Origin: a virus
Direction: 5' to 3' (one strand)
DNA: 40,779 bases
IMG/VR virus record: IMGVR_UViG_3300031569_000015
Coordinates: 1 to 40,779 of that record
In this document: positions 1-34,400 of the stretch, in pieces
Layout of the letters: each line of letters opens with the position of its first letter
Numbering within the stretch: position 1 is the stretch's first letter
The notes under the pieces: model-generated
Told to the model about the DNA's origin: nothing
What the model saw: the letters and a program-made list of their open reading frames with translations, nothing else
Databases searched by the model: none
Position numbers and translations under genes: made by a program

Positions 1-1181
1 GGGTTGACAAAGTGTTAGACTTTTTAAAAACACATAGTATACCGGTTAAAGATAACATGATCGACCAGATTGCCACTATATCAACTAACAACGATAAAGA
101 GTTAGGTAAACTAATTGGTAATGCTTTTAGAGAAGTTGGTGAAACAGGTGTTGTAACAATGCAGCCTTCAGAAGGAGGTGTTACAGAGGTTGAGATTGTC
201 GAAGGTGTAGAATATGGTAAAGGATATGCTCACCCTAACTTTGTAACTAACAAAGAGAAAAACACTGTAGAACTAGAAAATACTTTAGTTTTGATCATGG
301 ATTCAAAAATTGAATCGATTAGACAAGTGCAACCAGTTCTAGAGCATGTAATAAAAAATAATAAGCCCTTACTTATAATAGGTGAAGTAGAAGCAGGTGT
401 TCTGTCCGCTTTAGTTATGAATAGAATGAAAGGAAACATAAAGATTAATGTTATAGATCCACCATCCTATGGGTTAAGAAGAAAAGAAATATTAAGTGAT
501 TTAGCTTTATTAACTAATTCTAAGATTATTGATGAAGATCTAGGTGATGATTTAAATGTTATAAAAGTTGATTACTTAGGATCATGCATTAAAGCAACTT
601 CCACAGCAGATCAAACTATAATTCAAGTTGATGAACCTTCAGAAGAGATAGAAGATATAATCAAAAAGATTAAGAAAGATCTATTAAAGCAAAACAAAGC
701 ACATGTTGTTATTGGGCTGGAATTAAGACTAGCTAGGTTGTCAGCTAAAGTTGCAGTTGTAAAAGTAGGTGCAAATTCAGATATTGAATTAAAAGAAAAA
801 ACAGATAGAGTAGAAGACGCTATCTGCGCTACTAAAGCCGCTATAAAAGAAGGTATAGTTCCTGGAGGTGGAATTGCATTACTTGATGCTTCGCAAAATA
901 TAAAATCAAGCAATAAGTATGAAGATGTTCTTTTAAACGCTATTCAAGCGCCTTTTAAGACCATTTTAAGTAATGCTGGTATTGATCCATCCAAATTAAA
1001 AAACAAACAGAAGATCGGAATAGGATTAGATGTGGTTACAGGAAATATGGTAAATATGGTTGAGTCAGGAATTATTGATCCTTTATTAGTAACTAAAAGT
1101 GCATTAATAAATGCGGCTTCCGTAGCGACTACTATATTATCCACCGATTGTGTGATTAACAATTTAAGAGTTGAATCATGA
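1..1181 (+). CDS. groEL: Phage-encoded chaperonin GroEL (Hsp60), 5' end outside the window
   Basis: Group I chaperonin subunit, an ATP-driven folding chamber in the cytoplasm that works with GroES. The reading frame is open from base 3, so the N-terminal equatorial part with the nucleotide-binding DGTTT loop lies upstream; about 393 residues are visible. Seen: the GETGVVTM stretch, the apical domain (KGYAHPNFVTNK, KPLLIIGEVEAGVLSALV, GLRRKEIL), the intermediate-domain VEDA motif carrying the ATPase aspartate (Asp398 in E. coli), the PGGGIAL glycine loop, and the C-terminal SALINAASVATTIL helix. Compared with E. coli GroEL it lacks roughly 15 residues just before RLARLSAKVAVVKVG, and it has no Gly-Gly-Met tail, ending NNLRVES. 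Its stop overlaps the GroES start (ATGA), so the two are probably translationally coupled. It is divergent but shows no frameshift, so I read it as functional. A virion folding client is inferred. Confidence 0.95.
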   Translation, partial: VDKVLDFLKTHSIPVKDNMIDQIATISTNNDKELGKLIGNAFREVGETGVVTMQPSEGGVTEVEIVEGVEYGKGYAHPNFVTNKEKNTVELENTLVLIMDSKIESIRQVQPVLEHVIKNNKPLLIIGEVEAGVLSALVMNRMKGNIKINVIDPPSYGLRRKEILSDLALLTNSKIIDEDLGDDLNVIKVDYLGSCIKATSTADQTIIQVDEPSEEIEDIIKKIKKDLLKQNKAHVVIGLELRLARLSAKVAVVKVGANSDIELKEKTDRVEDAICATKAAIKEGIVPGGGIALLDASQNIKSSNKYEDVLLNAIQAPFKTILSNAGIDPSKLKNKQKIGIGLDVVTGNMVNMVESGIIDPLLVTKSALINAASVATTILSTDCVINNLRVES

Positions 1182-1438
1182 GAGCATTAGGTAGAAATTT
1201 AATTATACAAAAAATAGAAGAAGGTACAACTAAAACAGAAGGTGGCTTACTACTTGCTGAATTACATAAAGATGACATTAGGTATATAAAAGCTAATGTT
1301 ATAGATGTTGGTGAGGAAATAAAAGGTCTTAATAAAAAAGATATAATATTTTATGATCGTCACGCTGGTCACAAAATTGAAATACAAGAAGAAATTTATC
1401 ACGTTATAAAAGCTCAAGACGTGGTTGTTGTTTTATGA
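1178..1438 (+). CDS. groES: Co-chaperonin GroES (Cpn10)
   Basis: An 86-residue co-chaperonin that caps the GroEL chamber as a heptamer. Seen: an N-terminal strand (LGRNLIIQKIE), a mobile-loop region at about residues 16-33 with the hydrophobic GGLLLAE segment (LLL at 24-26, matching the IVL that binds GroEL apical domains), the K-A-N-V-I-D-V-G strand, a KKDIIFYDRHAG turn, and a C-terminal strand KAQDVVVVL matching the ESDILAIVE end of GroES. It is slightly shorter than bacterial GroES (about 97 residues), with a short roof hairpin. It overlaps groEL upstream and the next gene downstream by four bases each (ATGA), forming a tight cassette. T4 gp31 is the classic phage precedent for a capsid-folding co-chaperonin. 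Confidence 0.93.
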   Translation: MRALGRNLIIQKIEEGTTKTEGGLLLAELHKDDIRYIKANVIDVGEEIKGLNKKDIIFYDRHAGHKIEIQEEIYHVIKAQDVVVVL

Positions 1439-7115: not shown

Positions 7116-7343
7116 GTGAGTAACGTTGTAAGAAAAATCAGTATTGGATCTGATTATAAAAATGATGCTATGCATTACTCTATTGGCCAACAGGTTTATG
7201 GAGGACACGAAATAGCTTATATCATACATGATCAAGAAGATAGCTCTTATAATATTCACATAAAAAAAGACAATGAGATACTGCCATGGAAGAAGTTTAA
7301 TTCTAACATGGCTATATCGATTGAATATGATTTAGAATATTAA
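7116..7343 (+). CDS. Small conserved phage protein (KISIGSDYKNDAMHY family)
   Basis: 75 residues with a GTG start one base after the preceding stop. The N-terminal motif RKISIGSDYKNDAMHYSIGQ is a pattern I recall as strongly conserved in marine tailed phages, followed by a strand-rich domain (IAYIIHDQEDSSYNIHIKKD, PWKKFNSNMAISIEYDLEY). It appears all-beta, with no catalytic or metal motif visible. Function unknown. It overlaps the next gene by one base (TAATG), linking it to the GroES-like protein. Confidence 0.7.
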   Translation: MSNVVRKISIGSDYKNDAMHYSIGQQVYGGHEIAYIIHDQEDSSYNIHIKKDNEILPWKKFNSNMAISIEYDLEY

Positions 7344-7948
7344 TGCGGAGTTTATATGATTTCATAGTAGAACCAGTTGGTGACACTTATGAGAATGAAA
7401 TAGAAATAGAGAATGTTAAGATAATATTAAATACTAAGATTGAAAGTTTTAAATTTGTAAACAATGTAGCTAAAGTAATTAAAACTCCTTTAGCGTTTAA
7501 AACCTCAATAAAAGTAGGTGATACTATTTTAATACACCATAATGTATTTAGAACTTTCTATGACATGAAAGGTGTTAAGAAAAAATCTAGGTCTTATTTT
7601 AAAAATAATCAGTATTTCTGTGCATTAGATCAAGTATACTTATATAAGTCAAATTCAAAGTGGACATCTATCAATGATAGATGTTTTATAAAACCTTTAA
7701 AAAGCGAAAGTAATTTTAAGGTTGATAAAGAACAAAGCCTTATTGGAATACTAAAAATAGGTAATAGCTCTTTAGAAGCGCTAGGAATACACGAGGGAGA
7801 CACTGTTGGTTACACGCCATACGGTGAGTACGATTTCGTAGTTGACAAGAAGCGTTTGTATTGTATGAAATCAAATGATATTGTAATTAAATATGGAAAT
7901 AAAGAAAACCAAACTGAGTATAATCCAAGCTGGGCAAATAGCAGTTGA
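7343..7948 (+). CDS. Tandem GroES-like protein (Cpn20-like co-chaperonin candidate)
   Basis: 201 residues. Two halves each follow the GroES strand order. Half 1 (about 1-107): YDFIVEPVGD, then VAKVIKTP, then SIKVGDTILIHH, then NNQYFCALDQVYLYK. Half 2 (about 111-185): DRCFIKPLK, then LIGILKIGN, then LGIHEGDTVGYTPYGEYDFVVD, then KRLYCMKSNDIVIKYG. The second half lines up well with the GroES core (G-x-V-L-A-V-G-N, V-K-V-G-D-x-V-x-F, E-x-x-L-I-M-x-E-S-D-I-L-A). The only well-known double GroES is chloroplast Cpn20. Neither half has an obvious GGIVL mobile loop, so GroEL binding is uncertain and a divergent role is possible. It lies 6 kb from groEL/groES and just before terL, and its 3' end overlaps the next gene by 56 bases. 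Confidence 0.68.
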   Translation: MRSLYDFIVEPVGDTYENEIEIENVKIILNTKIESFKFVNNVAKVIKTPLAFKTSIKVGDTILIHHNVFRTFYDMKGVKKKSRSYFKNNQYFCALDQVYLYKSNSKWTSINDRCFIKPLKSESNFKVDKEQSLIGILKIGNSSLEALGIHEGDTVGYTPYGEYDFVVDKKRLYCMKSNDIVIKYGNKENQTEYNPSWANSS

Positions 7949-8168
7949 GGAGCTTATTAAAGTTGCTAAAGAAGCTATCATAGATACTGGTGATGACATC
8001 ACTGCTGATAGATTAAAAAATGCAGCAGCTACAAAAAAATTAGCTATATTTGATGCTTTTGAAATATTACAAAGAATACAAGAAGAGGATGACATGCTTA
8101 ACGAAAAACCTAAAGAAATAAAAGAAGAGAAAGCGTTTAGAGGTTTTGCAGAAGGAAGATCTAAATAA
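7893..8168 (+). CDS. Small helical protein upstream of terL (possible TerS)
   Basis: 91 residues, predicted mostly helical: TKLSIIQAGQIAVEELIKVA, then DITADRLKNAAATKKLAIFDAFEILQRI, then an acidic/basic tail. The middle segment, T-A-D-x-L-K-N-A-A-A-x-K-K-L-A-I-F-D-A-F, is one I recall directly upstream of terminase genes in marine phages. By position and size it is the best candidate for the small terminase subunit or another packaging accessory, but no helix-turn-helix is evident. It begins 56 bases inside the GroES-like gene in another frame and its stop overlaps the terL start by one base (TAATG), arguing for coupled translation. Confidence 0.65.
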   Translation: MEIKKTKLSIIQAGQIAVEELIKVAKEAIIDTGDDITADRLKNAAATKKLAIFDAFEILQRIQEEDDMLNEKPKEIKEEKAFRGFAEGRSK

Positions 8169-10384
8169 TGTACAGTCAAACTTTACATAAAGTATTAAAA
8201 AACCATATTAAACTTAAAGTTTTAAATAGAAACAATAGGTATAAAAAATGGGAGTACGGTTACAACAAAGAATTTGATATGGTTGTAATTAGTAGAACTG
8301 GTGAAATAGGGGAAATATACGAGATACAAAATCTTAAAATAGCTTTACCTAAACAATCAGATAACATAGTTAAGTTTGAAAACAATAAATGGGCTCGAAC
8401 TGATTTACCTAAACCTTTAAAGAAAATCAAAACAATATTTGATTGGGAGGAATATCCATTAGATTTTAAAGAATTATGGTATGATTACATTGATAAAGAG
8501 TTTGAATCTAGAGAAAAAGGATTTTGGTTTGTTAATAAAACAAATCCTACTTATATTACTGGCACTCACTACATGTACCTGCAGTGGTCCAAAATTGATG
8601 TTGGGAAGCCAGATTTTAGGGAGTCAAACAGATTATTTTTTATATTCTGGGAAGCTTGCAAAGCCGATACAAGATCCTATGGTATTTGCTACCTCAAAAA
8701 CAGACGGTCTGGTTTTTCATTCATGGCATCAGGCGAAACTGTTAACAGTGCCACTATCTCTACAGATTCACGGTTTGGGATTTTATCAAAAACAGGTCCA
8801 GATGCTAAAACCATGTTTACCGACAAGGTTGTACCCATATCCGTTAACTATCCGTTTTTCTTTAAACCGATTCAAGATGGTATGGATAGACCGAAGACGG
8901 AATTGGCTTACAGAGTTCCAGCCTCTAAATTTACAAGAAGAAAGCTAGAGACTAACGAAACACTTAGAGAACTAACAGGTCTTGATACGACTATCGACTG
9001 GAAAAACACTGGAGACAACTCTTATGATGGTGAAAAACTAAAACTATTAGTTCATGATGAATCTGGTAAATGGGAGAGACCAAGTAATATTTTAAATAAC
9101 TGGAGAGTTACTAAAACAACACTGCGATTAGGTAGTAAGATTATTGGTAAATGTATGATGGGTTCAACGAGCAATGCTCTTGACAAAGGCGGGGAAAACT
9201 TCAAGAAGCTTTATTATGATTCAGACGTTACCAAAAGAAACGCCAATGGGCAGACTCGCTCAGGATTATATAGTTTGTTCATACCTATGGAATGGAACTA
9301 CGAAGGATATATCGATTCTTATGGCGTACCTGTCTTCGACACCCCAAAACAACCGGTTGAAGATCCGCATGGTACAAAGATAAATATAGGTGTTATAGAA
9401 TACTGGCAAAACGAAGTAGATGGCCTTAAGGGTGATCAAGATGGGCTTAATGAGTTTTATAGACAGTTTCCACGTACAGAAGAACACGCTTTTAGAGATG
9501 AAGCTAAATCTTCTTTATTTAATCTAACTAAAATCTACGAACAAATTGATTGGAACGCAGATTTAAGAAGTAGTGGTATAATAACCAGAGGAAATTTTCA
9601 ATGGTTTAATGGCATTAAAGATACTTCAGTGATATTTAGTCCAACTAATAATGGAAGATTTTATGTCTCATGGGTTCCACCTTCACATTTACAAAATAAT
9701 GTTATTTCTAAAAATGGTAGAAAACATCCTGGCAACGAACATATTGGTGCTTTTGGGTGTGATAGTTATGATATATCAGGAACAGTTGACGGTAGAGGTT
9801 CAAACGGATCTTTACACGGTTTAACTAAATTCTCAATGGACGACTGTCCAACTAATCATTTTTTCTTAGAATACATCGCAAGACCCTCTACTGCTGAAAT
9901 CTTCTTTGAAGATGTTCTTATGGCATGTATTTTTTATGGAATGCCGATACTTGCGGAAAACAACAAACCAAGGCTTTTATATTATTTTAAAAGAAGAGGT
10001 TATAGAGGCTATTCAATGAATAGACCAGATAAAATTTATACAAAATTATCAGTGACTGAAAGAGAAATAGGTGGAATACCTAACTCTAGTGAAGATATAA
10101 AACAATCTCACGCCGCAGCGATAGAATCTTATATTCAAGATTACATTGGTTTAAGACCTGATACTAATTACGGGGATTTTTATTTCCAAAGAACTTTAGA
10201 AGATTGGGCAAAATTTAATATAAACAATAGAACTTCACATGATGCATCGATAAGTTCTGGGTTAGCAATAATGGCTTGTAATAAAAATAAATATAGACCT
10301 AACCCTATAGTTGAAAAAAAGGTTTATGATTTAGGAATTAAACGATATAATAACAAGGGAGCAATGTCAAAAATAATCGAATAA
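8168..10384 (+). CDS. terL: Terminase large subunit (TerL)
   Basis: 738 residues, long for a TerL. It is the packaging motor ATPase and headful/end nuclease. Seen: a non-canonical Walker A at about 177-185 (KNRRSGFSF) with Arg-rich residues and no GK[ST]; Walker B at about 293-298 (LLVHDE, Asp297-Glu298), followed by GKW; a coupling-type segment (GKCMMGSTSNALDKGGENF); and an RNase H-like nuclease with D532-x-x-D535 (GAFGCDSYDISG) and a late Asp692 (SHDASISSG). N-terminal 150 residues contain GYNKEFDM and the THYMYLQWSKID segment typical of large terminases from Bacteroidota phages. The gene abuts the portal gene exactly. The nuclease acidic set and Walker B make the call firm; the atypical Walker A is also what I recall for crAss-like and related TerL proteins. 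Confidence 0.9.
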   Translation: MYSQTLHKVLKNHIKLKVLNRNNRYKKWEYGYNKEFDMVVISRTGEIGEIYEIQNLKIALPKQSDNIVKFENNKWARTDLPKPLKKIKTIFDWEEYPLDFKELWYDYIDKEFESREKGFWFVNKTNPTYITGTHYMYLQWSKIDVGKPDFRESNRLFFIFWEACKADTRSYGICYLKNRRSGFSFMASGETVNSATISTDSRFGILSKTGPDAKTMFTDKVVPISVNYPFFFKPIQDGMDRPKTELAYRVPASKFTRRKLETNETLRELTGLDTTIDWKNTGDNSYDGEKLKLLVHDESGKWERPSNILNNWRVTKTTLRLGSKIIGKCMMGSTSNALDKGGENFKKLYYDSDVTKRNANGQTRSGLYSLFIPMEWNYEGYIDSYGVPVFDTPKQPVEDPHGTKINIGVIEYWQNEVDGLKGDQDGLNEFYRQFPRTEEHAFRDEAKSSLFNLTKIYEQIDWNADLRSSGIITRGNFQWFNGIKDTSVIFSPTNNGRFYVSWVPPSHLQNNVISKNGRKHPGNEHIGAFGCDSYDISGTVDGRGSNGSLHGLTKFSMDDCPTNHFFLEYIARPSTAEIFFEDVLMACIFYGMPILAENNKPRLLYYFKRRGYRGYSMNRPDKIYTKLSVTEREIGGIPNSSEDIKQSHAAAIESYIQDYIGLRPDTNYGDFYFQRTLEDWAKFNINNRTSHDASISSGLAIMACNKNKYRPNPIVEKKVYDLGIKRYNNKGAMSKIIE

Positions 10385-12781
10385 ATGAAAATGTACACAA
10401 ATTCTAATAGCGCCTTTCCTAGTCAGGTAGTACCGGCAGCGGAAAAAAATTCGTTGGAATATGGCTCTCAAGTAGCTTCTGCTATTGAAACAGAATGGTT
10501 CAATGGAGGTAGTAATAGATATTTGACAAGTTTTAATAACTTTCATCATTTAAGACTTTACGCTAGAGGTGAACAACCTGTTCAAAAATATAAAGATGAA
10601 TTATCTATTAATGGTGATTTATCTTATTTAAATTTAGACTGGAAACCAGTTCCTGTTATATCAAAATTTGTTGATATAGTAGTTAATGGTATTTCTCAAA
10701 AAGAATTTGAAATAAAAGCTTATTCTCAAGATCCTGAGTCTGTTAAAAAAAGAACAGAATATGCCACAGCAGTTGCTCAAGATATGTTTGCAGCTGAAGA
10801 AATAGCTAGAGCTAAAGCAGCTTTAGGTTTAGATTTACAAAGATCTAATATTTCTCCTTTAGATCTACCTAGAACTAAAGAAGAATTAGAACTACACATG
10901 CAACTTAGTTATAAGCAATCGGTAGAAATTGCTGAAGAAGAAGCTATAAGTACAACTTTAGCTAAAAATAAATGGGAACTTACTAAGCGTAGATTAAATT
11001 ATGATTTAGTTACTTGCGGAATAGCTGCTACTAAAACAAATTTTAATAAATCAAATGGAATAACTATTGATTATGTAGATCCTGCTTATATGATTTATTC
11101 GTACACAGAAGATCCTAATTTTGAAGACATATATTATGTAGGAGAAGTAAAGTCTGTTACTATTCCAGAATTAAAAAAACAATTTCCATATATAAGTAAT
11201 GAAGAATTACAACGTATACAAGAAATGCCAGGAAATAGACAATACATTACTGGTTGGGGAAACTACGACGCTAACACGGTTCAAGTATTGTACTTTGAAT
11301 ATAAAACATATCATGATCAGGTTTTTAAACTAAAACAAACTGATAATGGTTTAGAGAAAATAATACAAAAAACTGATGATTTTAATCCTCCCCCTTCTGA
11401 CACTTACAATAAGGTTTCAAGAAGTATAGAGGTTTTATACAGTGGTGTAAAAGTTTTAGGAACTAACACTATGTTACAGTGGGAGTTGTCAGAGAACATG
11501 ACAAGACCTATGGCTGATACCACTAAGGTAGAAATGAATTACGCTATATGCGCACCTAGAATGTATAAAGGTAGAATAGAATCTTTAGTAAGTAAAATAA
11601 CTGGTTTTGCAGACATGATACAGTTAACGCATTTAAAAATGCAACAAGTGTTAGCTAGATTAGTACCTGATGGAGTGTTTTTAGATATGGATGGTTTAGC
11701 TGAGGTTGACCTAGGTAATGGTACAAATTATAACCCAGCAGAAGCATTGAATATGTATTTTCAAACTGGTAGTGTTGTTGGTAGATCATTAACTCAAGAT
11801 GGTGAAATGAATAGAGGTAAAGTTCCTATACAAGAACTTTCATCTTCTTCTGGTGGAGCTAAATTGCAAAGTTTAATACAAACTTATCAATACTATTTAC
11901 AAATGATAAGAGACGTGACCGGGCTTAATGAAGCAAGGGATGGTAGTTTACCTGATAAAGATGCTTTAGTCGGTTTAGCTAAAATGGCGGCCAATCAATC
12001 TAATATAGCTACTAAACACATTAATCAAGCAAGTTTATATTTATCTTTAAGAATATGTGAAAATATATCTTTAAAACTAGCTGATGTTCTTAATTTTCCT
12101 TTAACACGTAATTCTTTAATAGAAAGTATATCTTTATATAATGCCCAGACATTGCAAGAAGTAGGAAACTTAAACTTACATGACTTTGGAATATTTTTAG
12201 AACTTGAACCTGATGATGAAGAAAAAGCAGCATTAGAACAAAATATTCAAATAGCTTTACAATCTGGTGGTATAGATTTAGAAGACGCTATAGATATAAG
12301 GCAAATAAAAAATCTAAAACTAGCAAATCAATTACTAAAGTTAAAACGTAAAAAGAAATTAGAAAGAGATCAAGCAAATCAACAACAAATGGTACAAGCT
12401 CAAGCTCAAGCTCAAGCTGAAACTGCTGAAAAAACAGCTATGGCTGAGGTTCAAAAGCAACAAGCTTTAACTGAACAAAAGGTTAATGTTGAGCAAGCTA
12501 AATCTCAATTTGAGATACAAAGAATGCAAACTGAATTGCAAATTAAATCTCAATTATTATCTCAAGAGTTTGAGTATAACAAGCAGTTAGCTCAAATAAA
12601 AATAGGAACTGAAGGTTCTAAGGAAACAAAAATAGAAGATCGTAAAGATAAACGAGTTAAATTACAAGGAACTCAACAAAGTCAGTTGATTAATCAACGA
12701 CAAAATGATTCACCACCAGTTGATTTCGAAAGCAGTGGTAGTGGAGCGGGGGCATTTGATCTAGATGGATTTATGTCTTAA
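10385..12781 (+). CDS. Portal protein
   Basis: 798 residues, starting at the base after the terL stop. The portal forms the dodecameric DNA gate at one capsid vertex and docks TerL. Seen: an N-terminal segment with WFNGGSNRYL and VVNGISQKEFEIKAYSQDP, a wing or clip region with repeated beta segments, and the hallmark stem-to-crown helices (TGFADMIQLTHLKMQQVLAR, YQYYLQMIRDVTGLNEARDG, KDALVGLAKMAANQ). The I-R-D-V-T-G-L-N-E-A-R stretch parallels I-R-x-x-T-G-x-N-x-x-R in long portals of Bacteroidota phages. Residues about 640-760 form a Gln/Ala-rich coiled coil including a QAQAQAQA run, an unusually long barrel-like tail. Position between TerL and the scaffold/MCP genes supports the assignment. 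Confidence 0.88.
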   Translation: MKMYTNSNSAFPSQVVPAAEKNSLEYGSQVASAIETEWFNGGSNRYLTSFNNFHHLRLYARGEQPVQKYKDELSINGDLSYLNLDWKPVPVISKFVDIVVNGISQKEFEIKAYSQDPESVKKRTEYATAVAQDMFAAEEIARAKAALGLDLQRSNISPLDLPRTKEELELHMQLSYKQSVEIAEEEAISTTLAKNKWELTKRRLNYDLVTCGIAATKTNFNKSNGITIDYVDPAYMIYSYTEDPNFEDIYYVGEVKSVTIPELKKQFPYISNEELQRIQEMPGNRQYITGWGNYDANTVQVLYFEYKTYHDQVFKLKQTDNGLEKIIQKTDDFNPPPSDTYNKVSRSIEVLYSGVKVLGTNTMLQWELSENMTRPMADTTKVEMNYAICAPRMYKGRIESLVSKITGFADMIQLTHLKMQQVLARLVPDGVFLDMDGLAEVDLGNGTNYNPAEALNMYFQTGSVVGRSLTQDGEMNRGKVPIQELSSSSGGAKLQSLIQTYQYYLQMIRDVTGLNEARDGSLPDKDALVGLAKMAANQSNIATKHINQASLYLSLRICENISLKLADVLNFPLTRNSLIESISLYNAQTLQEVGNLNLHDFGIFLELEPDDEEKAALEQNIQIALQSGGIDLEDAIDIRQIKNLKLANQLLKLKRKKKLERDQANQQQMVQAQAQAQAETAEKTAMAEVQKQQALTEQKVNVEQAKSQFEIQRMQTELQIKSQLLSQEFEYNKQLAQIKIGTEGSKETKIEDRKDKRVKLQGTQQSQLINQRQNDSPPVDFESSGSGAGAFDLDGFMS

Positions 12782-14073: not shown

Positions 14074-15528
14074 ATGGCTTTAAGTCCACAGTTTGGGAGT
14101 ATTATACCCTCTCAATCTCAACAAATTTTAAACAACAACTTTCTAACATTTGATGGTACCACAGGAGGTGCTGACAATAACTTTGCTCAACAATACCTAC
14201 CGGAATTGTATGAACAAGAAGTAGAAAGATACGGAAACAGAACTTTATCTGGTTTCTTACGCATGGTTGGCGCTGAAATGCCAATGACATCGGATCAAGT
14301 AATTTGGTCTGAACAAAATAGACTACACATCGCTTATAACAACTGTACATCTGCATCTGCTGCTGGAACAATTTCAATTCCTATTGCTGCTGGAATTGTA
14401 AATGTAATATCTCCAGGCGCAACAATTGTTGTAATGGATAACTTTGGAAACGAAGCGAAATGTTTTGTTAGAGTATCTCAAACAGCTACAGGTTTACTAA
14501 CTGTAGAGCCTTACGGTTTTGCAACTTTAGCTCTTGCTGGAATTGCTGATGGAGCTGGAAAAAAGATATTTGTATATGGTTCTGATTTTCAAAAAGGATC
14601 AGCAACTGGTAACGGTATCTCTGGTGCAAATCAATACAATGTTGCAAACAACCCTATGGTGACGGTTACTCCTTCATTTACTCAATTTTCTAATCAACCT
14701 ATCATAATTAGAAGTACTTATACTATCAATGGTTCTGACACTGCTCAGATCGGTTGGGTAGAAGTTGCTACTGAAGATGGTACTGGAGGTTATTTATGGT
14801 ACTTAAAAGCTGAGTCTGAAACTAGACTTAGATTTGAAGATTACTTAGAAATGGCTATGGTAGAAGGTGAATTATCTGCTGGTGGACCTGGTGCATTAAC
14901 TGCTCAAGGTGCAGGTACGCAAGGTCTTTTTGCTGCTATCACAGCAAGAGGTAATGTACAAGTAGGATTTAGCGCAGCTGCTGGTTTAGATTCATTTGAT
15001 GCAATTCTTAAAAATTTAGATACTCAAGGAGCTATCGAAGAAAACATGCTTTTCTTAAATAGATCTTCTAATCTTGATTTTGATGATATGCTAGGATCAA
15101 TCTCTGGTGGATTTGCTGGAGGAACTGCTTTCGGTTTATTTGAAAACTCTGAAGAAATGGCTTTAAATCTTGGTTTCTCAGGATTTAGAAGAGGTTCTTA
15201 CGATTTTTACAAAACAGACTGGAAATATTTAAATGATGCTTCTACAAGAGGTGCACAAGTTGGACCTGCTTCAATAGAAGGAGTTTTAATACCAGCTGGT
15301 ACATCAACTGTTTATGATCAGATTTTAGGTACTAACATTAGAAGACCATTCTTACACGTACGTTATAGAGCTTCACAAGCTGATGACAGACGAATGAAGT
15401 CTTGGTTAACTGGTTCAGTAGGTGGTGCTTTCACTTCATCTTTAGATGCGATGGAAGTTAACTTCTTATCTGAAAGATGTTTAGTAACTCAAGCTGCTAA
15501 TAACTTTGTATTATTCAAAGGAATCTAA
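14074..15528 (+). CDS. Major capsid protein (HK97-fold expected)
   Basis: 484 residues immediately downstream of the scaffold-like gene, preceded by a classic A/T-rich Bacteroidota-type leader (aattaaaaattATG). The N-terminal arm (QQILNNNFLTFDG, PELYEQEVERYGNRTLSGFL, MVGAEMPMTSDQVIWSE) matches the pattern of long N-arms in capsid proteins of Bacteroidota phages. Then come beta-rich and Gly-rich segments, an E-loop-like region, and a helix and beta core (EDYLEMAMVEGELSAGGPGA, FDAILKNLDTQGAIEENML), ending with FLSERCLVTQAANNFVLFKG. A hairpin follows the stop, fitting a transcript end after an abundant product. HK97 fold is inferred from position and size. Confidence 0.85.
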   Translation: MALSPQFGSIIPSQSQQILNNNFLTFDGTTGGADNNFAQQYLPELYEQEVERYGNRTLSGFLRMVGAEMPMTSDQVIWSEQNRLHIAYNNCTSASAAGTISIPIAAGIVNVISPGATIVVMDNFGNEAKCFVRVSQTATGLLTVEPYGFATLALAGIADGAGKKIFVYGSDFQKGSATGNGISGANQYNVANNPMVTVTPSFTQFSNQPIIIRSTYTINGSDTAQIGWVEVATEDGTGGYLWYLKAESETRLRFEDYLEMAMVEGELSAGGPGALTAQGAGTQGLFAAITARGNVQVGFSAAAGLDSFDAILKNLDTQGAIEENMLFLNRSSNLDFDDMLGSISGGFAGGTAFGLFENSEEMALNLGFSGFRRGSYDFYKTDWKYLNDASTRGAQVGPASIEGVLIPAGTSTVYDQILGTNIRRPFLHVRYRASQADDRRMKSWLTGSVGGAFTSSLDAMEVNFLSERCLVTQAANNFVLFKGI

Positions 15529-18677: not shown

Positions 18678-21600
18678 ATGGCAGAATCTAAAAATAGTTT
18701 CATTCAATCCAAGATGAATAAGGATTTGGATGAAAGACTAATTCCAAATAATGTATACAGAGACGCTTTAAATATAGCGGTGTCTAGATCTGAAGGAAGT
18801 GACGTGGGTGCCTTAGAAAGCGTCCTAGGTAACTCTGTGGTCTCTGCTGGTGGTGGTCATGTAAATCTTAAGATTATTGGTAAGTTTGTAGATGAAGCAA
18901 ATTCTTTAATTTATTTTTTTAAAACTAACTACACGGGTTCAGCAGATGTTTTACCTGCAGATCCAACTGTTTATGAAATGAGTATAGAGGTATATAATAC
19001 TTCTACTGGTCAAACCTCTGTTAAAGTACAGGGAAATTTTTTAAACTTCTCCACACTCAATCCTATATACGGGGTTAATCTAATAGAAAACTTATTATTC
19101 TGGACAGACAATAGAAATGCTCCAAGAAAAATCAATGTAGATAATCCCTCAACTTATTATACAAATGCAGATCAAATATCTGTATGTAAGTGGGCACCTT
19201 ATTTAGCCCCAAATTTTATAGATTTAAGAACTATTATAACTCCAACAAACGCTACACATCCTTCAACAATGTCTGATGCTTCAGACTTGCCTGTAGTTAC
19301 TATTGGGTTAGTTGAAGTAAGTTCTCAAAACTTAGCAGTTACTAAATATAGAAATGGAGACGTAATTACCCACGCACCAAGTCAAACTGATTGGAATACT
19401 TATGATTCAACTGGAGTTGGATGCTGGGCTTATTATGATAACAGTTTAGGTAATGGCGTAAGTTATGGAATTTTATATAATAAATGGGCTGTAAATGATC
19501 CTAGAAATATAGCACCAGTAGGGTATGAAGTAGCAAACTTAAATCAATTAAAAACTATAGCCGGTATTCCTCCAGGGACTGGAAAAGCTACTGAATTAAA
19601 GGCTGAAGGATTTGAATACTGGGAAAATGCTTTAATACTGTTAACTCCTGGTACGGGTTACACTGCAGGCACTCAAGCAACAACAAACTCTGGAAGTGGT
19701 AATGGTTTAACAGTTACAATAACAATCAGTGATGGTGGTATTACAAGTGGTGTGATCGCAGCTGCTGGAAGTGGGTACGTAGATGGAGATGTTATAACTA
19801 TATCGGGTGGTACAGGCGGAACGTTCACGTGGACAGGTTCAATAGAAGGTACAAACTTAAATCAATTTAATGCTAGAGGAGCTGGTGAAAGAACAAACAC
19901 TGCTTTTATTGAGTTAAAAGAATCAACAACTTTTTGGGCAAAAGATAGTGATGATTTTCTTAGATTAACTTCTGATTCTGCTGATGCCATTGTAGTAACA
20001 GCACCAGGAACAACACCAAAACTTGCTGGAAGATCTGTTCGTTTAATTAGAAATCTTGATTACAACGGTTGGAATGGTGATCCTGAATATTTAAAAGATA
20101 AATTTGCTAAATTTAGTTATAGATTTAAGTTTAATGATAACGAATATTCATTGGTTGCACCTTTTAGTCAAGATGTTTTTATACCAGAGCAACAAGGACA
20201 TTTTGTTAATGATGACGAAAATGAAGCTTTTATAACAACTGTTGTAGAGTTTATGCAAAATTCTATAAACAATGCTGTATTAAATATAACGCTACCTTCG
20301 TTAGATATAATTAATGATTATAAAATAAAAGCAATAGACATTATAGTTAAAGAATCTGATGCTCAAGCTTATTCAGTTGTTGAAACTATACCTGTTAATC
20401 CATCTTTTATTACTGCCTTAAACAACACTAATATTTATCAATACACATATCAATCTCTTTTGCCTGTTAAAACTTTAACATTACAACAAACTACTAGAGT
20501 TTTTGACAAAGTGCCTGTAAAAGCATTGTCTCAAGAAACAAGTGGAAACAGAGTTATGTATGGTAATTTTACTCAAGGGTACGGAACTCCTTTTGGCTTA
20601 AACTACTACATTGACAATAATGCTAAAACATTACAAAACGAAATAGAATACCCTAATCACTCTGTAAAACAAAATAGAAACTATCAAGTTGGTGTAATTT
20701 TAGCTGATAAATATGGTAGACAAACAGATATTATTTTATCCAACTATGATGACCAAATAGATTCGCTTGGAAACCCTATACCTGGTTCGAATCTTTTTAT
20801 AAATTATAAACCTTTGTCTTTTGCAGATGATGTAGCGGAATGGCCTGGTGATAATATTCAATTAAATTTTAATACACCTGGTATACCTGAAAACTCAACT
20901 TATGATTTAGCAACTGATAGTTATCCAGGTGCTTACGCTATAGGCAATTACTACGAAGTACCTTTTGCTAATATAACTGGAAAATATTTTTGGGATTTAA
21001 GTAATCAATCTTTAACAGCTGTGACTGGTGATGTTGTTTTTGATTTTAATACTTTAAGTTATGCCGATGCTACTGATGTGGCAAATAATTATGAATTATA
21101 CAAAAATGAAAGCGATGGTTGGATTAAATTAACTAAAACAATTGATTATTCTATTGCGGATAATGGTGGTGGGGTTCAAGCTACATTAGTAGTTGGAGCC
21201 GTGGCAGATGTTGTTTATAAATTTAGACTTCTTTATACTGCTTCTAGTTTAAATAAATATCAAACTGGACAAGAGCTTGCTATTCAAGAAGATTTATTTC
21301 CTAACTTTCCTACAGCATATTCCACTTATTTTGCTGTCAATAAAGAATTAAGAGGATTATATTGTGATTATTCTGCTATAAAAACAGTAACACCTTTACC
21401 CACCCCAATCATAAGAGCTGTATATATTTATACAACACAAGAAGTTGCAACAAAATACTTATTCAACAACACCACTGTTACAACTCGTCCTGAACCAGTT
21501 TTAACAGTTGCAACAACACCTGTGACTTTTGCAACTTATGATATAAACCCTAAAGGGTTTTATAGTTATAAACTAGGTATAAAACAACAACAACAAGATT

Positions 21601-24017
21601 ATTACAATGTATATTTACCTGGAATAATAAACGGTTATCCAATAGATGGAAATTTACTTGAAAGAAATGAAATTGCTTTTACAACTTTAATAGCTGATAA
21701 TATAAACAAAATACCAAGAAACCTTCAAGATGTTGGTCCTTTACAAAATCAGTTCACAAGTGATGAAAGAATGTGGGGTAGGGTTACTAACGTTAATCAA
21801 GTTGTCAGAAATGGAATTTATAAAACTTATAATAAACAATTTTTACCATTATCAAGTCCAGACTCCGCGGATCTAGTTGGAACCATTAAAGATATTTATC
21901 CTTCATTAGACACAGTGTTTAGTAAGCCACCGGCTGCACCAGTTAATGGTGAGGTAAACTCTTTTAGTATTTATGACCCAGAAACACGACCTTATGTTGC
22001 TAAGTTTTCAACTCAACAAGGTATTGGTTTAACTGAAAATAATTTTGTTATACCTAGTGGAACTACAAATGAACCTTATCCTGGAGGTATGTCACTAGCT
22101 GTTTACGAAACAGTACCGGTAACTGTACCTTTTGAATTGTTTTATGAAACATCAACAACAGGTTTAATATCGGATTTAAACGACCAGATACAAAGTGAAA
22201 ACACTGCTATAAATGGAATGACAACACCTACCGTATCGTTTAACGAAAATGATACAGTAGGAACTACAATAACTACGGATATTTACCCTACTATAAACGG
22301 CACTATATACACTGGTGCAACAGGTACTCTAGTTGAAATATTTAATTATAATTTAAATGGAACTGTTAACACTGCTTTTAATTTTGCGACTAATCCTAAT
22401 AAAAGATTTGACGAAGGAAGTAATACAGGTAGTACAAGTATTTTTATAAGAACAGCTGGCACCGACCCTGCGGCTGGTGGAACTTTTTATGCGGGATCTT
22501 CAACTGAACCAAATGACGTTCAGTTTGCAGGAAAATTTCTATACACAATTGAATGGAGTGATAACAACGTTTTAACAAGACAAAGTGGTACGCTTCAACT
22601 AACTAATAGTGCGCCTGTGATCACACTTCCATCAGGTACTATCGCGGTCACTACAGCCACTCAATGGGTATTTGGTGGTACTGGCACTATAGACGGTGGA
22701 GTAGGTGGAGGAACTTCTCCTTCTGGTAGAAATGGTAGTGCTAGAAATACTGATACTACAAATTACGGAAATCATGGTGAATTCAGGTTAGGAAGTGGAA
22801 GCAGTAATCAATGTTGGAGTATGACAGAGTTAAGAATCACTGATACTGCTAACGTCACAAACACATATACAGATAGTACTGCACAAACAATATCGGATTT
22901 TTTTATAATAGGTTTATCTGCTTTAACAGGTGTAAATGGTGATGCTGATAGAGATTGTAGATTTAATTTACAAGTTAATCCAAGCAATCCATTAGGCGCT
23001 GGATATATTTATTGTATTGATTTTAAATTAACAGACACGATAGGTGATAACGTTTCAACAACAGTATGTTTTGGTCCACCAGCTAATTCGTATGAAGCAG
23101 TGGAATATACAACTTATACTTCGGGGCCTGCATCAGCTCCTCCATCAACACAAGCAACAACGGTTTTAATAGGTGGTGGTGCTATACCTGATCCATTTTG
23201 GACTGGTCAAATACAAAACTGGTCAGGAACCGTAGGAGTCGGTCAAATTGTATATATGTTTATGAGATTTAAAGTTGATTCTGCAACTGATCAAGCTTTT
23301 ATAGTTGAGGTAAAAGATGTATTCGAACCATCTACCGGAGACATGGGATTTTATCCCGATGGGACAGCTATACAGAATGGGACAGCAACTCCAACTTTTC
23401 CTATTCAAAGCGCAGCTGCTGAAGGTTGGGGAATAATTGGTATAAGTATGGGTGCTTTTGGAGCGCAAAGTAATGCTATAGCAAACGGCGTAAGACCTGG
23501 TCAGAAATCAGATGTAACCCCTGGAACTTATGGCCCTTATAATTATAACACCTCTTCTTTTGTTAATTTAAAATATTCAATAGCTCAAGGTCCTTACATA
23601 AGTGGAATTGGTCCAGGTTGGGAAGCTGAGTTAATGTGGTCAACATTTAGTAGTCCTAGTTCTTTGTCTCAACTTAACTCACTAAATGCAAGGGTTGGAT
23701 TAGTTCCACCTTTTTATTCTAACACTACATCTTTATCTGCAGTAACAACTGGCGGTACTAATTATATTCCTCAAAACGCGGCATCAACAACTACAAATGG
23801 TTCAGGCACAGGTATGACAATTAAAATCACAACAAATGCTGGAGTTATTACAAGTGGTGTTATTGTTGAACCAGGTTTAAATTATGCAAATAATGACATA
23901 GTTACTATTACTGGTAACCCAGCTGGCGCGGGTGGAACATTTACGATTGGCACTGGTGGAGTAACTGGTTCTCAAATAGCTCCAACATTCACACCAATAC
24001 CACACGGACCAAGTTAA
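18678..24017 (+). CDS. Giant tail structural protein (muzzle, nozzle or tubular-B type)
   Basis: 1,779 residues, three bases after the previous stop. The start (FIQSKMNKDLDERLIPNNVY, RDALNIAVSRSEGSDVGALE) resembles the N-terminus of phage tail stabilisation or tubular-B proteins (K-M-N-K-D-x-D-x-R-x-x-x-x-x-x-Y-R-D-A-x-N). It then has long beta-rich stretches (NLLFWTDNRNAPRKINV, FAKFSYRFKFNDNEYSLVAP) consistent with a beta-propeller nozzle. About residues 320-390 hold a G-x-G-Y-x-x-G-D-V-I-T-I module (TGYTAGTQA..., AAGSGYVDGDVITISGG), and a second copy lies at about 1687-1765 (NYANNDIVTITG). The middle (~1200-1600) is Ig-like or adhesin-like, with Cys residues. A receptor-binding or tail-tip role for the C-terminal part is plausible. 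It is the largest tail gene of the window. Confidence 0.65.
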   Translation: MAESKNSFIQSKMNKDLDERLIPNNVYRDALNIAVSRSEGSDVGALESVLGNSVVSAGGGHVNLKIIGKFVDEANSLIYFFKTNYTGSADVLPADPTVYEMSIEVYNTSTGQTSVKVQGNFLNFSTLNPIYGVNLIENLLFWTDNRNAPRKINVDNPSTYYTNADQISVCKWAPYLAPNFIDLRTIITPTNATHPSTMSDASDLPVVTIGLVEVSSQNLAVTKYRNGDVITHAPSQTDWNTYDSTGVGCWAYYDNSLGNGVSYGILYNKWAVNDPRNIAPVGYEVANLNQLKTIAGIPPGTGKATELKAEGFEYWENALILLTPGTGYTAGTQATTNSGSGNGLTVTITISDGGITSGVIAAAGSGYVDGDVITISGGTGGTFTWTGSIEGTNLNQFNARGAGERTNTAFIELKESTTFWAKDSDDFLRLTSDSADAIVVTAPGTTPKLAGRSVRLIRNLDYNGWNGDPEYLKDKFAKFSYRFKFNDNEYSLVAPFSQDVFIPEQQGHFVNDDENEAFITTVVEFMQNSINNAVLNITLPSLDIINDYKIKAIDIIVKESDAQAYSVVETIPVNPSFITALNNTNIYQYTYQSLLPVKTLTLQQTTRVFDKVPVKALSQETSGNRVMYGNFTQGYGTPFGLNYYIDNNAKTLQNEIEYPNHSVKQNRNYQVGVILADKYGRQTDIILSNYDDQIDSLGNPIPGSNLFINYKPLSFADDVAEWPGDNIQLNFNTPGIPENSTYDLATDSYPGAYAIGNYYEVPFANITGKYFWDLSNQSLTAVTGDVVFDFNTLSYADATDVANNYELYKNESDGWIKLTKTIDYSIADNGGGVQATLVVGAVADVVYKFRLLYTASSLNKYQTGQELAIQEDLFPNFPTAYSTYFAVNKELRGLYCDYSAIKTVTPLPTPIIRAVYIYTTQEVATKYLFNNTTVTTRPEPVLTVATTPVTFATYDINPKGFYSYKLGIKQQQQDYYNVYLPGIINGYPIDGNLLERNEIAFTTLIADNINKIPRNLQDVGPLQNQFTSDERMWGRVTNVNQVVRNGIYKTYNKQFLPLSSPDSADLVGTIKDIYPSLDTVFSKPPAAPVNGEVNSFSIYDPETRPYVAKFSTQQGIGLTENNFVIPSGTTNEPYPGGMSLAVYETVPVTVPFELFYETSTTGLISDLNDQIQSENTAINGMTTPTVSFNENDTVGTTITTDIYPTINGTIYTGATGTLVEIFNYNLNGTVNTAFNFATNPNKRFDEGSNTGSTSIFIRTAGTDPAAGGTFYAGSSTEPNDVQFAGKFLYTIEWSDNNVLTRQSGTLQLTNSAPVITLPSGTIAVTTATQWVFGGTGTIDGGVGGGTSPSGRNGSARNTDTTNYGNHGEFRLGSGSSNQCWSMTELRITDTANVTNTYTDSTAQTISDFFIIGLSALTGVNGDADRDCRFNLQVNPSNPLGAGYIYCIDFKLTDTIGDNVSTTVCFGPPANSYEAVEYTTYTSGPASAPPSTQATTVLIGGGAIPDPFWTGQIQNWSGTVGVGQIVYMFMRFKVDSATDQAFIVEVKDVFEPSTGDMGFYPDGTAIQNGTATPTFPIQSAAAEGWGIIGISMGAFGAQSNAIANGVRPGQKSDVTPGTYGPYNYNTSSFVNLKYSIAQGPYISGIGPGWEAELMWSTFSSPSSLSQLNSLNARVGLVPPFYSNTTSLSAVTTGGTNYIPQNAASTTTNGSGTGMTIKITTNAGVITSGVIVEPGLNYANNDIVTITGNPAGAGGTFTIGTGGVTGSQIAPTFTPIPHGPS

Positions 24018-28450: not shown

Positions 28451-31400
28451 ATGCCATATTTAAACGAAGCAACAGGGGAAACTCTAACTTACGCTCAAAT
28501 AGAAGAAAAAGCTTTATTAGAAGATACATCAGCCTTTGATTATATATCAAAACATGATCTACAAATGGTTAGTAATATGTCTTCTTTTGAAGAACCTCAA
28601 GATGTAAATTTTCAAACGGGCATTGCAAATCAAGGTGCAAATGCAATGTCCACAATGCCGGGAGCACCCGAGATTACGGATTTAGATTCAACAACTTCTT
28701 CTTTGGAATCTTATACGGAGCGACAAACGACTCTAGCAAACGCGCCTGTAACAAGTGCAATTGCAGATCGTGATAAATTTGTAAAAGACAATAAACTAGA
28801 CGAGTTTTTTAGTCTTAAAGGAGGAAAAATATCTGAGTTAGACGAGCTTAATAAAAAAATACAAGATAAAGAAAGAGAGTTAAGGAATGCTCCAGAAAAC
28901 CAATTTGCTCCAGCTACATTTTTAGACGAAGAACCTAAGTTTATTCAAGACTTTCTTCAACAAGAGTTTGGCACAACTGGCATTACTTTTAATTTAGACG
29001 AGTCTAATAATTTTATAACAGCTAATGTTGGCGGTGAAGAATTAAAACTACCTTTAACTGGAGATAGAATTCTTGGTTCAGGTGGAACAGACGAAGATAG
29101 CACTCCGTTTGCTAATTATTTGTATAAAAATTCAAGAAAAGAATTTAAAGAGAATTATGATAAAATCATAAAATATGATATAGATAGAAGAGCTGCAGCA
29201 CATGTAGAGAACTATAATGGTGTTATGATGGAAACCATCGAAAAAGACATTGTTTCTAACGCATTAAGTAATGCTCTTGAAAACGGTGACGTTAGTTTAA
29301 CTGAGTTTAATAATACTTTCAATGAAACAGGTTTAGAGTTAGTACCTGTAACAGAAGTAGAAGAATACACAGAAGGTGGATTTGGAGCAAAAGTTAAAGA
29401 AAGAACAGTTTTAACAGGTTATAATTTAGTTAAAAAATCTTCAAATGAACAAGGAGAGGAAGTTCAAGACATAGTTGCATTCCAAAAAATAAAAAAAGAT
29501 GAATTTGTTGATGGCAACGATCTTCAAGCTTGGTTATCTAGCAATTTAGACTCGGATCAAACTCTTAAAGTTAAAAAAAATATATTTAATTTTATATCCG
29601 CTTATACAACTGAAGAAGCTAAAATACAGACACAAACAATACAATCTATTAATCCTCAACAAATCGATGCTAAAGTATCTAAGGGAGAAGGAAATTGGAT
29701 AGAGAAATTGACTGGAGATGATGGTTTGTTAAACGCTATTAACGTAAAAACACAATCAGAAGTTTTTAATAAACAAGAAAGAAATACAATTCAATTACAT
29801 TTTGCTAATCAACTAAAACTAGCAAATCCTCTTAGAGCATTTACTACTCCTTCTAAAAACTCTTCAACTGGGTCTTTAACAGAAAAAATAGAATCAACTC
29901 AAACACCGTATGAAATTGCCACTAGTTTAGAAGGTCTTCCAGAAACTATAAAAAATAAATTAGAAGGAACTTATAAATTGTTAAACAATAATAGTCCTTT
30001 GAATGTTATTCTTGAAAACTCTAAAAACACAGTTAAACAAGGTTTATTAACTGAGAAAGAAAACAGTTTGATGGAAAATCTAATGGAAGCTAAAGAGATT
30101 CCTTTTACAGATTCAAATGGTAACGTTTCAATGATTCCATTTAATACTTTTATGACAGGACTAGGTGCTTTGTTAAAAGGTAAAAAAGACGAGATCATTG
30201 ATGATAATTTACAAGCTTTTAAAAATGGGTTTGAAGAAGTTGATGAAAAATTAAAACAAACTGTTAATTTAGGAGCTGAGATAGTTGCTGAAACATTTAA
30301 AAGTAACCCTAATTTACCTGTTGACTTTAATGTTACAATAGGCGATAATCAAGAGCTTTTCTATTCTTTAAAGCCAACTAAAAAATTAACTGAAAAAGAA
30401 CAAACTATTTATGATGAATTACAAGTTGATTTATTTAAATGGGAAACAACTGCTTTTAAATTAAATAAAGAAAGAAGTCAATCTGTTTCTAATTATTTAA
30501 ATACAATAATTTCTTTTAATAAAAATGTAAAAGAAAATAAAGAAGAAAAAGAAAGAAGTAAAGAAGGTCTTATAGAAAATTTGACACAATCTGTAAATCC
30601 TAAAACCAAAGAAAACTATACATTAAAAGAAGCTAAGGAGTTAGCTAATGACATTAGGTTTAGAGATTCTTCAATGATCCTTAAGTTAGCTAATAAAGAG
30701 TATGACGCTGGAGCTTTAATGGTTAACGATTTTTACCAAGCTAGTAAAGGTATATTGTTAGCAATACCAACTCTCTCAGGTAATGAATACGCTATAGATG
30801 AGCAAAGACAAATAAATAAAAACGCTGAATTATATCAAACTATGGGAACATACAATGATGGTTTAGGGAGTGGTTTTGAATTTGCTGGTAGAACTTTAGC
30901 TCAACAAATGCCTAATATTATTTTAGCGGTGGCTACTGGTGCAGCTGGTAATGCTACAGGGTTTTTAAGCACGACAGCGGTTAAAGCTGCTGTAGCAACT
31001 ACTTTTGGTACAACGGCAGGTGCAGATATATATAGAAATCTAACACTTGGCACAGAGTTAGTTGCTAAAGCTAAAGATCAAGTTAAATTCTTAAAAGATG
31101 CTTATAGTAAGGGGCTAGTCAGTGCTCTTGAGTATACAGAAGGTATGGCAGATGCTAATCAAACTATTGCCTACAATGATTTAACTCAAGCCCAAATTTT
31201 AGGAGCATCAGCTATGACTTTTGCTATTGAAGGTGGAATTACTTTTATGATTGGTAGCGGTAATAACACTTTAAAGTTTTTAGACGATGTAGCTGGAAAG
31301 TCTACAGGTTCCTTAGCTGTAACTAATCTTGTAAAAAACAGTGCTTGGAAAAATGCAGGTTTGTTTGGAATAGATTATACAAAAAGACTTGCTTCTGAAG

Positions 31401-34400
31401 TAGTAGAAGAAGAATTAATATATGGAGGTACTCAACTTTTTAGTGAAACATTAATATTAAACAGAAATTTTGATTTAAGTCAGTTAGATGATACAGCTAT
31501 TACAACTATTATAACCGCAGGTACATCAAACAGTTCGGTTGCGTATTCCGCTTTGACTAATATTAGCATGTCAGAAGACATTAGAAAAGCAGCTGGGGAA
31601 TATCATAATGGAAAAATAGTTAATGTTTTAAAATCTTTAAACTTAGCTAAAACCGATAAAGATAGAGCTCCTTTTCTTTTAACATTAGCAGAACATAACA
31701 TAGCTTTAAGTGATTTAAGTGGTGAAGCGGGAGTTGATGTAATGGCTTTAGGAGATAAAATGCAATCTTTATTAGCTTTAAAAATAATTAAAGATAATCT
31801 ATATACTCAAGCTGGGGTTAAAAGTGATGGTAAAAATGTTAACAGAGTTATAGGTCAATATAAATCAAAACTAAATGCTAATCAAAAAAAGGCTTTCGAA
31901 GATGATTTAGCTGCTGTAGAAAGTGAAATAAATTCTATAAGAAACTCAGAAAAGAATTACCAAGGCGTTATAAACCAAATAAATGGAAAGTCTAAAAATT
32001 ACAAACCTGAGTTTAAAGATGGGAAGCGCAAAAAATATAAAGGTATTTATGAGATAACTGCTGACCAATTAAAAGGGGATTCTAAATTTGACAAAGCTAG
32101 CGAAAGAGGTAAAATTGGATTAGTTTTAGAAAAAATAAGAAACAATATTAGTAATACATATACTGCTAAAGCTGAGCAAAATGAGTTTTTTATTAATGAA
32201 TGGAATAAAAAAATTAAAGAAAACCCAAAACTAAAAAATAAAAAACAACAATACTTTGAAATTAGAGGAAGGGAAATTGCTTTTAGTACTGTAAATTTAA
32301 CTACTATTCTAGGCGAAGCTGATAGTGCAAAAGAAATAGTTAAAAACTTTGATGATTTAAAACTTATAGAAGCTCCTGACGGAAACCTTCAAGAAGAGCT
32401 TAATAGAATGTTACAAGACAAAGAAATTACTGATGAAGATTATACAATTATTAACAAATCTTTACAAGACAAAGTAATAGATGGTAAGTCATTTAAAACA
32501 AACGGTTTTGTTACGCCAGATGGGAAATTTATTGTTAATAACGTTTCTAAAAAGTATTTTGAGGACACTGGCAATATTCAAGCTGGAACAGTTATAGTCC
32601 ATGAAATCAATCATATTATTGATGACAAATTTTTTGGTAATACTTTAGATAAAAGCGGTGATGCTGTCTTATCTAAAAGAGGGAAACAGTTTGTAGACAA
32701 TCTTCATAAACACATGAGTGAAACAGAAGATATTACTTTAAAAATGATTCAAGTAAAAGCTTTGAGAGCTGTTAAATTTATGGGCAAAGGGGAGTGGAAT
32801 ATTAATTCAGATAAATATAAAGACGAGTATGCTAGAGAAGTTCAAACTCTACTTTTTGCAGAAGAATCAAGGTTTGAAGGCGGTACTAATTATGAAAAAC
32901 AAGAAAAATTTAATTTATTAAACAAAACATTAAATACTTTATTTGGTAAAGGAGAAAATATGAGTTCTCCTCAAAAAGCTTTTGACTATATTGTGGCAAA
33001 CAATGCTGCTGCTCGTAAAGGTAAATTAAGAGAGATTGTACAAAGAGGTATTGATAAGTTTGGTGGAGAATCTGGTGGAAAAAGATCAGTGAGTCCACAG
33101 TCTGTTGTTGATAGAATAAACGAAAAAAATAAAAGTGTAGAAAACTTTACACCTATCACGGAAAAGCAAGTTCAAACGATGGTTGATAAAGTAGCTAACA
33201 GAACCTGGAGTAGATTTGGTAGACCAATACCTGCAAATATAAGAGAAAAGTTTATTGGCAGCAAAGGTGATGAAAGTGGTAGAAAAAAATGGGTTGACGA
33301 TGCTAAACAAATACTTAATACTATAGCGTTAGGTTTTGATGCTAGTAAAGCTTCTTTCGGTCAATATATGGCCAACACGGGTATGCAAAGAGCAAATGCT
33401 TGGGCTAAAAATGAATTTGGTATTCCAAGCGCAGAACAAGGTGCTAGAGTCAATGTAGAAACCTCTAAGGAAGCTCAAGGAACACTGGATAATACACAGG
33501 ACTTTACAGAAAGACAAGCAAAAGAATCTAGCGAAACTTTATCTAGTTTAAAAAACACTATTAAATCTAAGAACAAAAAATCTTTACTTAATAACATTGA
33601 AAAGGGAGTTGAAAAAGAGGTTAAATACAAACAACCTGCTATGAATAAAGCTTCCACAATAAAATCAAAATCTGAATTAATAAGTAATTTAAGTAAGGGT
33701 TTACAAAATGTAACTATTGATGGTAAAAACTTATACGCTAAAGTAATAGATGATATAGGTGGAAGAAATAAAACGATAAACGAATTTGAAACGTTTTTAT
33801 CAGAAAATTATACATCTTTGTTACAATCTGGTGGATTAACTACAAGTTATTTAAGTAAAGCTTTTCCACAAGCTATTGAAAAATATATTGTTGGTGAAGG
33901 TTGGGTTAAATATCCTGGATGGAAAGGTAAAAAGAAAGGTAAAGCTAAAGGAGATGTAGATATATGGAGCTCTACAGAAAGTGGTCCTTTTCAAGGATCA
34001 ACTTCTGGTTTACAAAAAATAAGAAGAATTCCTAATATTAAAAATGCAATACCTTTAGCTCAGTTTAAAGGTAAATATATAGATGGTATAAACAATAAAG
34101 TAAAAGTTGCACCAACAGAAGCTTTAGCTAAGCAGTTGGTTCAAGAAATAGGTTTAGATGTTTTTAATGAGGAAATTCAAAAAGAAACCAGTGTTATAAA
34201 AGAATTGTTTAAAGAAAGACAAGATCTTGTTGGAGCGCTAACAGATATAAGTAATTTTGAAGCTCAAATTAATTTAGATGTAGAAAGAAGAGGTATTAAA
34301 AATAGTCTAGCAACCTTAAGCCCACAACAATTTGAAAATTGGACAAATAAAAGATTTGAATTTTATGCAGCTATTGAAGATTTAAGAGCAAATGGTTTAA

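Follow-up and report, generated by a model that had tools for sequence, protein, structure and literature searches.

The window analysed here is the whole 40,779-base IMG/VR record IMGVR_UViG_3300031569_000015, a linear virus fragment whose source is a podovirus-like phage of marine Bacteroidota, the likely hosts of this marine phage lineage. On the plus strand, the fragment begins with the 392 C-terminal codons of groEL (Cpn60; 3..1181), identified by Pfam, PHROG and NCBIfam matches, by the relative L007 and by the tree, and continues with the adjoining groES gene, encoding an 86-aa single-domain Cpn10 (1178..1438; Pfam Cpn10, AF2 model). Further downstream, on the same strand, are the genes for a 201-aa, Cpn20-like tandem co-chaperonin (7343..7948; phrog_13932, hhalign and AF2 model), the terminase large subunit (terL; 8168..10384; phrog_6681, E 2e-164), the portal protein (10385..12781; phrog_6547, E 1e-144) and a 484-aa virion structural protein, the putative major capsid protein (MCP; 14074..15528; phrog_13704, E 2e-86). 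The putative MCP shares 38-47% identity with its homologues in Flavobacterium, Cellulophaga and Maribacter phages, and the Calle_1 homologue carries the MCP label in its record. A crAss-like identity of the virus is not supported, given that the capsid gene has its matches in the elemo/Calle/Panino group and that crAss-like GroELs are placed elsewhere in the tree, though on long branches. A scan for promoters and terminators gave a result at chance level.

Several other features of the window are worth recording. The 3' end of the tandem gene is overlapped by a 91-aa ORF (7893-8168, plus strand) that extends as far as terL; its location makes it a candidate small terminase, and no family match was detected for it. 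A 1779-aa virion protein (18678-24017, plus strand) contains a Fib_succ_major domain (residues 216-427, E 4e-10) after a conserved N-terminus, and the region 24050-25405 matches a later part of phrog_14478, the same PHROG as the 1779-aa protein, which suggests a split gene. A single 3362-aa frame (28451-38539, plus strand) includes a weak polynucleotide-kinase-like stretch at residues 2458-2629 (phrog_415, E 1e-4), and a giant protein of similar size is encoded by ctfjg026. On the minus strand, a fragment of the ribonucleotide reductase large subunit (40180-40779) runs off the contig end.

The visible part of GroEL contains a Cpn60 domain (Pfam Cpn60_TCP1, PF00118, E 4e-30, 105 bits against a cut-off of 34.3) and matches the PHROG groEL family (E 3e-95). 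The gene is 5'-truncated, with the N-terminal ~125 aa lying beyond the contig edge; the full-length gene, the recovery of which had been called for in a preliminary description of this DNA, was obtained through L007, a 97% identical relative that provides the missing N-terminus in a GroEL of 517 aa. The L007 protein scores 484 bits with NCBIfam PRK00013 (cut-off 397) and falls below the stricter equivalog cut-off of TIGR02348 (478 vs 582); the full-length relative shares 41% identity with E. coli GroEL. The nucleotide-site residues T30, G32, D52, DGTTT, D398, G415 and D495 are identical in L007, L012 and L038 (in L007, specifically, T30, G32, D52, D87, T89-T91, D398, G415 and D495 are kept), the window GroEL itself displaying only the C-terminal ones, from D398 onwards. 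A broken ATP site lacking DGTTT, which had been put forward as an argument against an active chaperonin, is ruled out, as the motif is kept in all relatives that cover the N-terminus. Among the groove residues, Y199, F204, L237, L259 and V263 are kept, and three positions are altered (Y203N, L234Q and V264M).

The groEL stop and the groES start share the sequence ATGA, and the visible parts of both genes are intact, with no stop in either frame, as stated in the preliminary description. Substitutions between the window and L007 are mostly synonymous (dN 0.012 and dS 0.134 for GroEL; dN 0 and dS 0.079 for GroES), and both genes are, in this comparison, under purifying selection. Split groEL genes, interrupted by stops or frame changes, were observed in two records, L287 (G017:C1:14706-16158) and L063 (G025:C1:2087-3529), the latter of which also contains an intact groEL near its other end, perhaps through assembly redundancy.

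The trimming of GroEL differs from what was first reported. The supposed loss of ~15 residues between the apical and intermediate regions is ruled out by aligning the protein to E. coli GroEL: LGQ to VGA spans 60 aa, compared with 61 in E. coli. Instead, the deletions relative to E. coli are equatorial, at 427-433 (7 aa) and 468-470 (3 aa), with small additional ones at 108, 141, 253 and 340-341. The C-terminal tail (529-548 of E. coli GroEL) is missing as well, and the reported absence of a GGM tail holds for the window and for all the C-termini listed among its relatives; the GGM tail is present in 74 of 80 bacterial GroELs, and most of the bacterial GroELs compared have both this tail and the longer equatorial loop. 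The E. coli ring-ring contacts E434, R452, E461 and V464 vary in the phage protein, and the two equatorial deletions lie beside them.

In the phylogenetic tree, the marine phage GroELs group together in a single clade (100/100) with a long stem, separate from the GroELs of the Bacteroidota hosts. The GroELs of Panino and elemo join this clade at 94/97, a placement to be read with caution in view of long branches, and those of Bacteroides phage DAC19 and Vibrio phage Va1 are separate and host-like. A recent host origin of the phage GroEL is not supported by the tree, the deep placement being affected by long branches. Across 64 loci, the divergence of GroEL correlates with that of the tandem protein (r 0.88; none of 2000 permutations as high), which is consistent with long joint inheritance of the two but may merely mirror shared phage ancestry, for which whole-genome descent alone suffices.

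The single-domain GroES shows a Cpn10 fold with a mobile loop and a hydrophobic triplet. It scores 39.8 bits with Pfam Cpn10 (cut-off 21.1), retains GGLLL, and yields an AF2 model (pLDDT 82.5) that matches GroES folds with Z of 10-12, with low confidence in the loop at 16-30, as expected of a mobile loop. In all relatives listed, groES lies directly downstream of groEL and overlaps it. The roof segment comprises 7-9 aa in the marine phage relatives, compared with 16 in E. coli; a roofless GroES unique to phages, considered at one stage, was dropped after a bacterial control. Indeed, because the segment is already 11 aa long in Bacteroidota (31 of 33) and 7 aa, as short as in the phages, in two Nitrospirae (L362 and L397), the phage roof is only mildly unusual. 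T4 gp31, which has no roof loops, gains an 8% larger chamber (PMC6318259); the modest shortening in the phage GroES therefore makes for a weaker comparison with gp31.

The groEL/groES cassette, then, is real and functional-looking but already known, because GroEL of this lineage has been in print since 2017, when it was reported from 36 environmental genomes belonging to the phi38:1-like group (Nishimura et al., PMC5332604). What is new here is the tandem co-chaperonin, although public records already call its gene a co-chaperonin. The preliminary description, restricted to positions 1-1438, missed this second co-chaperonin, which lies outside that interval. The 201-aa product matches phrog_13932 (co-chaperonin GroES) over almost its whole length (E 4e-24), and its length exceeds that of one Cpn10. 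It apparently consists of two Cpn10 domains in tandem, D1 (approximately 1-104) and D2 (approximately 107-185), and the model together with HMM comparison indicates a head-to-tail arrangement of the two. The GroES profile matches D2 in hhalign (96.4%, E 1e-9), and no significant profile similarity to GroES was obtained for D1 alone (10%). Searching the PDB with the tandem sequence gave no match; only the model matched. The AF2 model (pLDDT 78, pTM 0.71, with residues 21-40 at about 60) has its best match in the algal Cpn20 7ekq_R (Z 10.1, 156 residues aligned over 1-185); taken separately, D2 matches GroES with Z 8.4 and D1 matches T4 gp31 with Z 7.0. MDR dehydrogenases, whose structure includes a GroES-like domain, score Z 5.7 in the same list of D1 matches. 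The predicted Cpn10 identity of D1 thus draws mainly on structure, more than on sequence.

Homologues of the tandem protein in other families reinforce the two-domain assignment. A GroES HMM detects both domains in the homologues from phi18:3 (i-E 0.008 and 6e-12) and elemo (0.004 and 0.04), and Pfam Cpn10 exceeds its cut-off in those of phi18:3, phi38:1 and Calle. D1 has a conserved hydrophobic triplet in its flexible loop (residues 27-29), which resembles the IVL of GroES and is aliphatic (of the LIL, LVL or IIL type) in most of 88 homologue rows. The corresponding D2 loop of the window clade is short, with 17 aa between the anchors compared with 32 in D1, and for this reason D2 may not bind GroEL in this clade.

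The tandem gene has a fixed place in the genome. It lies within the packaging region, 3-9 kb away from groEL, and precedes terL in all 210 loci with room for it. Among 27 long IMG/VR records, the tandem protein is encoded in 27, and GroEL and GroES in 26 each, the sole record devoid of both being a 38 kb fragment. Given that 10 of these records were chosen by GroEL and 17 by the capsid or tandem gene, only the latter 17 test the presence of GroEL without bias, and it is found in 16 of them; the tandem protein is likewise encoded in each of the 19 long records that were not selected by the tandem gene. GroEL, single-domain GroES and the tandem protein are all present in the cultured phages Panino, elemo, Calle and phi38:1 and in the uncultured ctfjg026, and the two co-chaperonins occur together in every cultured relative examined. 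In phi38:1 the three proteins are gp005, gp007 and gp089, respectively. In Maribacter phage Panino, CDS0109 (L083, 8767-9033), annotated as hypothetical, is a single-domain GroES (Cpn10 36.0 bits, cut-off 21.1). In phage phi18:3 both co-chaperonins are present, whereas neither annotation nor HMM reveals a GroEL; the tandem gene nevertheless lies upstream of terL here too.

Phage phi38:1 and related podoviruses of marine Bacteroidota likewise encode a group I chaperonin and co-chaperonin, together with the tandem protein and with capsid, portal and terminase genes related to those of the window. The GroELs of the cultured relatives are 38-40% identical to those of the window clade, which is itself separate and well supported and is further distinguished by the order groEL-groES with overlap; Calle and ctfjg026 lack the equatorial deletion 427-433 seen in the window clade. 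The giant-phage chaperonins of EL, OBP and AR9 are also GroEL homologues but are very divergent and work without a co-chaperonin, whereas the window GroEL resembles group I far more than it does those of EL and AR9 and is accompanied by cognate co-chaperonin genes. T4 gp31, the fold of which is matched by the D1 and GroES models, is a phage co-chaperonin with a short or absent roof, but it is a single-domain protein that works with the host GroEL, T4 having no GroEL of its own. Chloroplast Cpn20 (7ekq chain R) is likewise a head-to-tail pair of Cpn10-like domains, ~200 aa in length, that coexists with single-domain Cpn10. However, its identity to the phage protein in the structural match is only 14%, no significant sequence match between the two was found, the D2 loop is shortened in the window clade, and the phage protein is known from sequence and model. 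Independent fusion is more likely than common descent with the plastid protein.

The dedicated folding machine postulated in the preliminary description is well supported as a functional phage system by the ATP-site residues, purifying selection, the phage clade of GroEL, the co-chaperonins and the published detection, by mass spectrometry, of methylated phi38:1 GroEL in infected cells (PMC13288928). We consider it reasonably probable that this machine folds phage proteins, probably those of the virion, and that its lid is composed of both single and tandem subunits. On this view the phage brings a three-part group I chaperonin system of its own, in which GroEL forms the ATP-driven ring and is joined by the single-domain GroES and by the tandem co-chaperonin. 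During infection, the ring would capture phage proteins that need help, and the lid would close over the captured client. The tandem protein most likely supplies lid domains, alone or mixed with GroES, possibly in a seven-domain ring of, for example, three tandem subunits and one single subunit, as formed by Cpn20 and Cpn10 in chloroplasts. In phages without groEL, such as phi18:3, the two co-chaperonins would act on the host GroEL, as T4 gp31 does. A chamber tuned for a phage client, as initially suggested, is plausible. A very large tail or internal protein, one of the clients then named, is unlikely to be encapsulated because T4 gp23, at 56 kDa, is already slightly beyond GroEL-GroES capacity (PMC6318259). 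The other, the 484-aa MCP of about 53 kDa, would fit the chamber and appears to be the best candidate client.

Less probable, although the most serious of the competing explanations, is that GroEL and GroES carry out the folding and that the tandem protein has left chaperonin work and now functions in packaging or in assembling the head, for instance within the terminase complex or as an assembly factor, so that its adjacency to terL would be functional. The invariant position upstream of terL, maintained even in the groEL-less phi18:3, and the reduced D2 loop of the window clade fit such a role, but D1 retains the GroES-type triplet in most homologues, single-domain GroES always accompanies the tandem protein, and the phi18:3 record flags several virion proteins by MS/MS without the tandem protein being among them. 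We regard as improbable an ordinary GroEL/GroES pair in which the tandem protein is simply one more annotated GroES that carries an additional domain and has no particular role: the GroEL of the lineage is indeed published, and public records do name the tandem protein co-chaperonin GroES or cpn10, but the two-domain architecture appears in no annotation or paper that we found, and conservation of the gene at one locus across divergent families points to a distinct role. Finally, it is very improbable that the phage GroEL works without lid closure and that the co-chaperonins serve only the host GroEL, as might be suggested by the altered groove positions and by the chaperonins of EL, OBP and AR9, which act without a co-chaperonin (PMC7185714, PMC9598537), because groES directly follows and overlaps groEL in all relatives listed, five groove residues are kept, and the similarity to E. 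coli GroEL far exceeds that to the GroEL of phage EL (24% over part of the query).

Within the folding-machine explanation, we tentatively add an extension that we consider unlikely on present data, namely, that the mixed seven-domain lid is convergent with that of chloroplasts and that a smaller number of lid contacts would suit a ring whose ring-ring interface is weakened and which works as a single ring. Fewer contacts between the lid and GroEL would follow from the loss of most of the D2 loop in the window clade, and the single-ring idea from this short loop, the equatorial deletions and a report on single-ring GroEL which indicates that such a ring requires altered GroES binding to cycle (PMC5575113).

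According to published work, Cpn20 belongs to chloroplasts and apicoplasts, is able to substitute for GroES, and can assemble together with Cpn10 into mixed rings of seven domains (PMC5780408, PMC3542282); existing descriptions restrict tandem Cpn10 proteins to chloroplasts, algae and apicoplasts. No paper describing a tandem phage co-chaperonin was found in the open-licence literature. Because phi38:1, with GroEL, and phi18:3, without it, are both cultured with Cellulophaga hosts, the roles of the two lids are directly testable. The occurrence of tandem Cpn10 throughout a marine phage lineage that is abundant, in phages that encode a GroEL as well as in those that do not, provides an independent example of how a seven-fold ring may be served by lid domains in even number.
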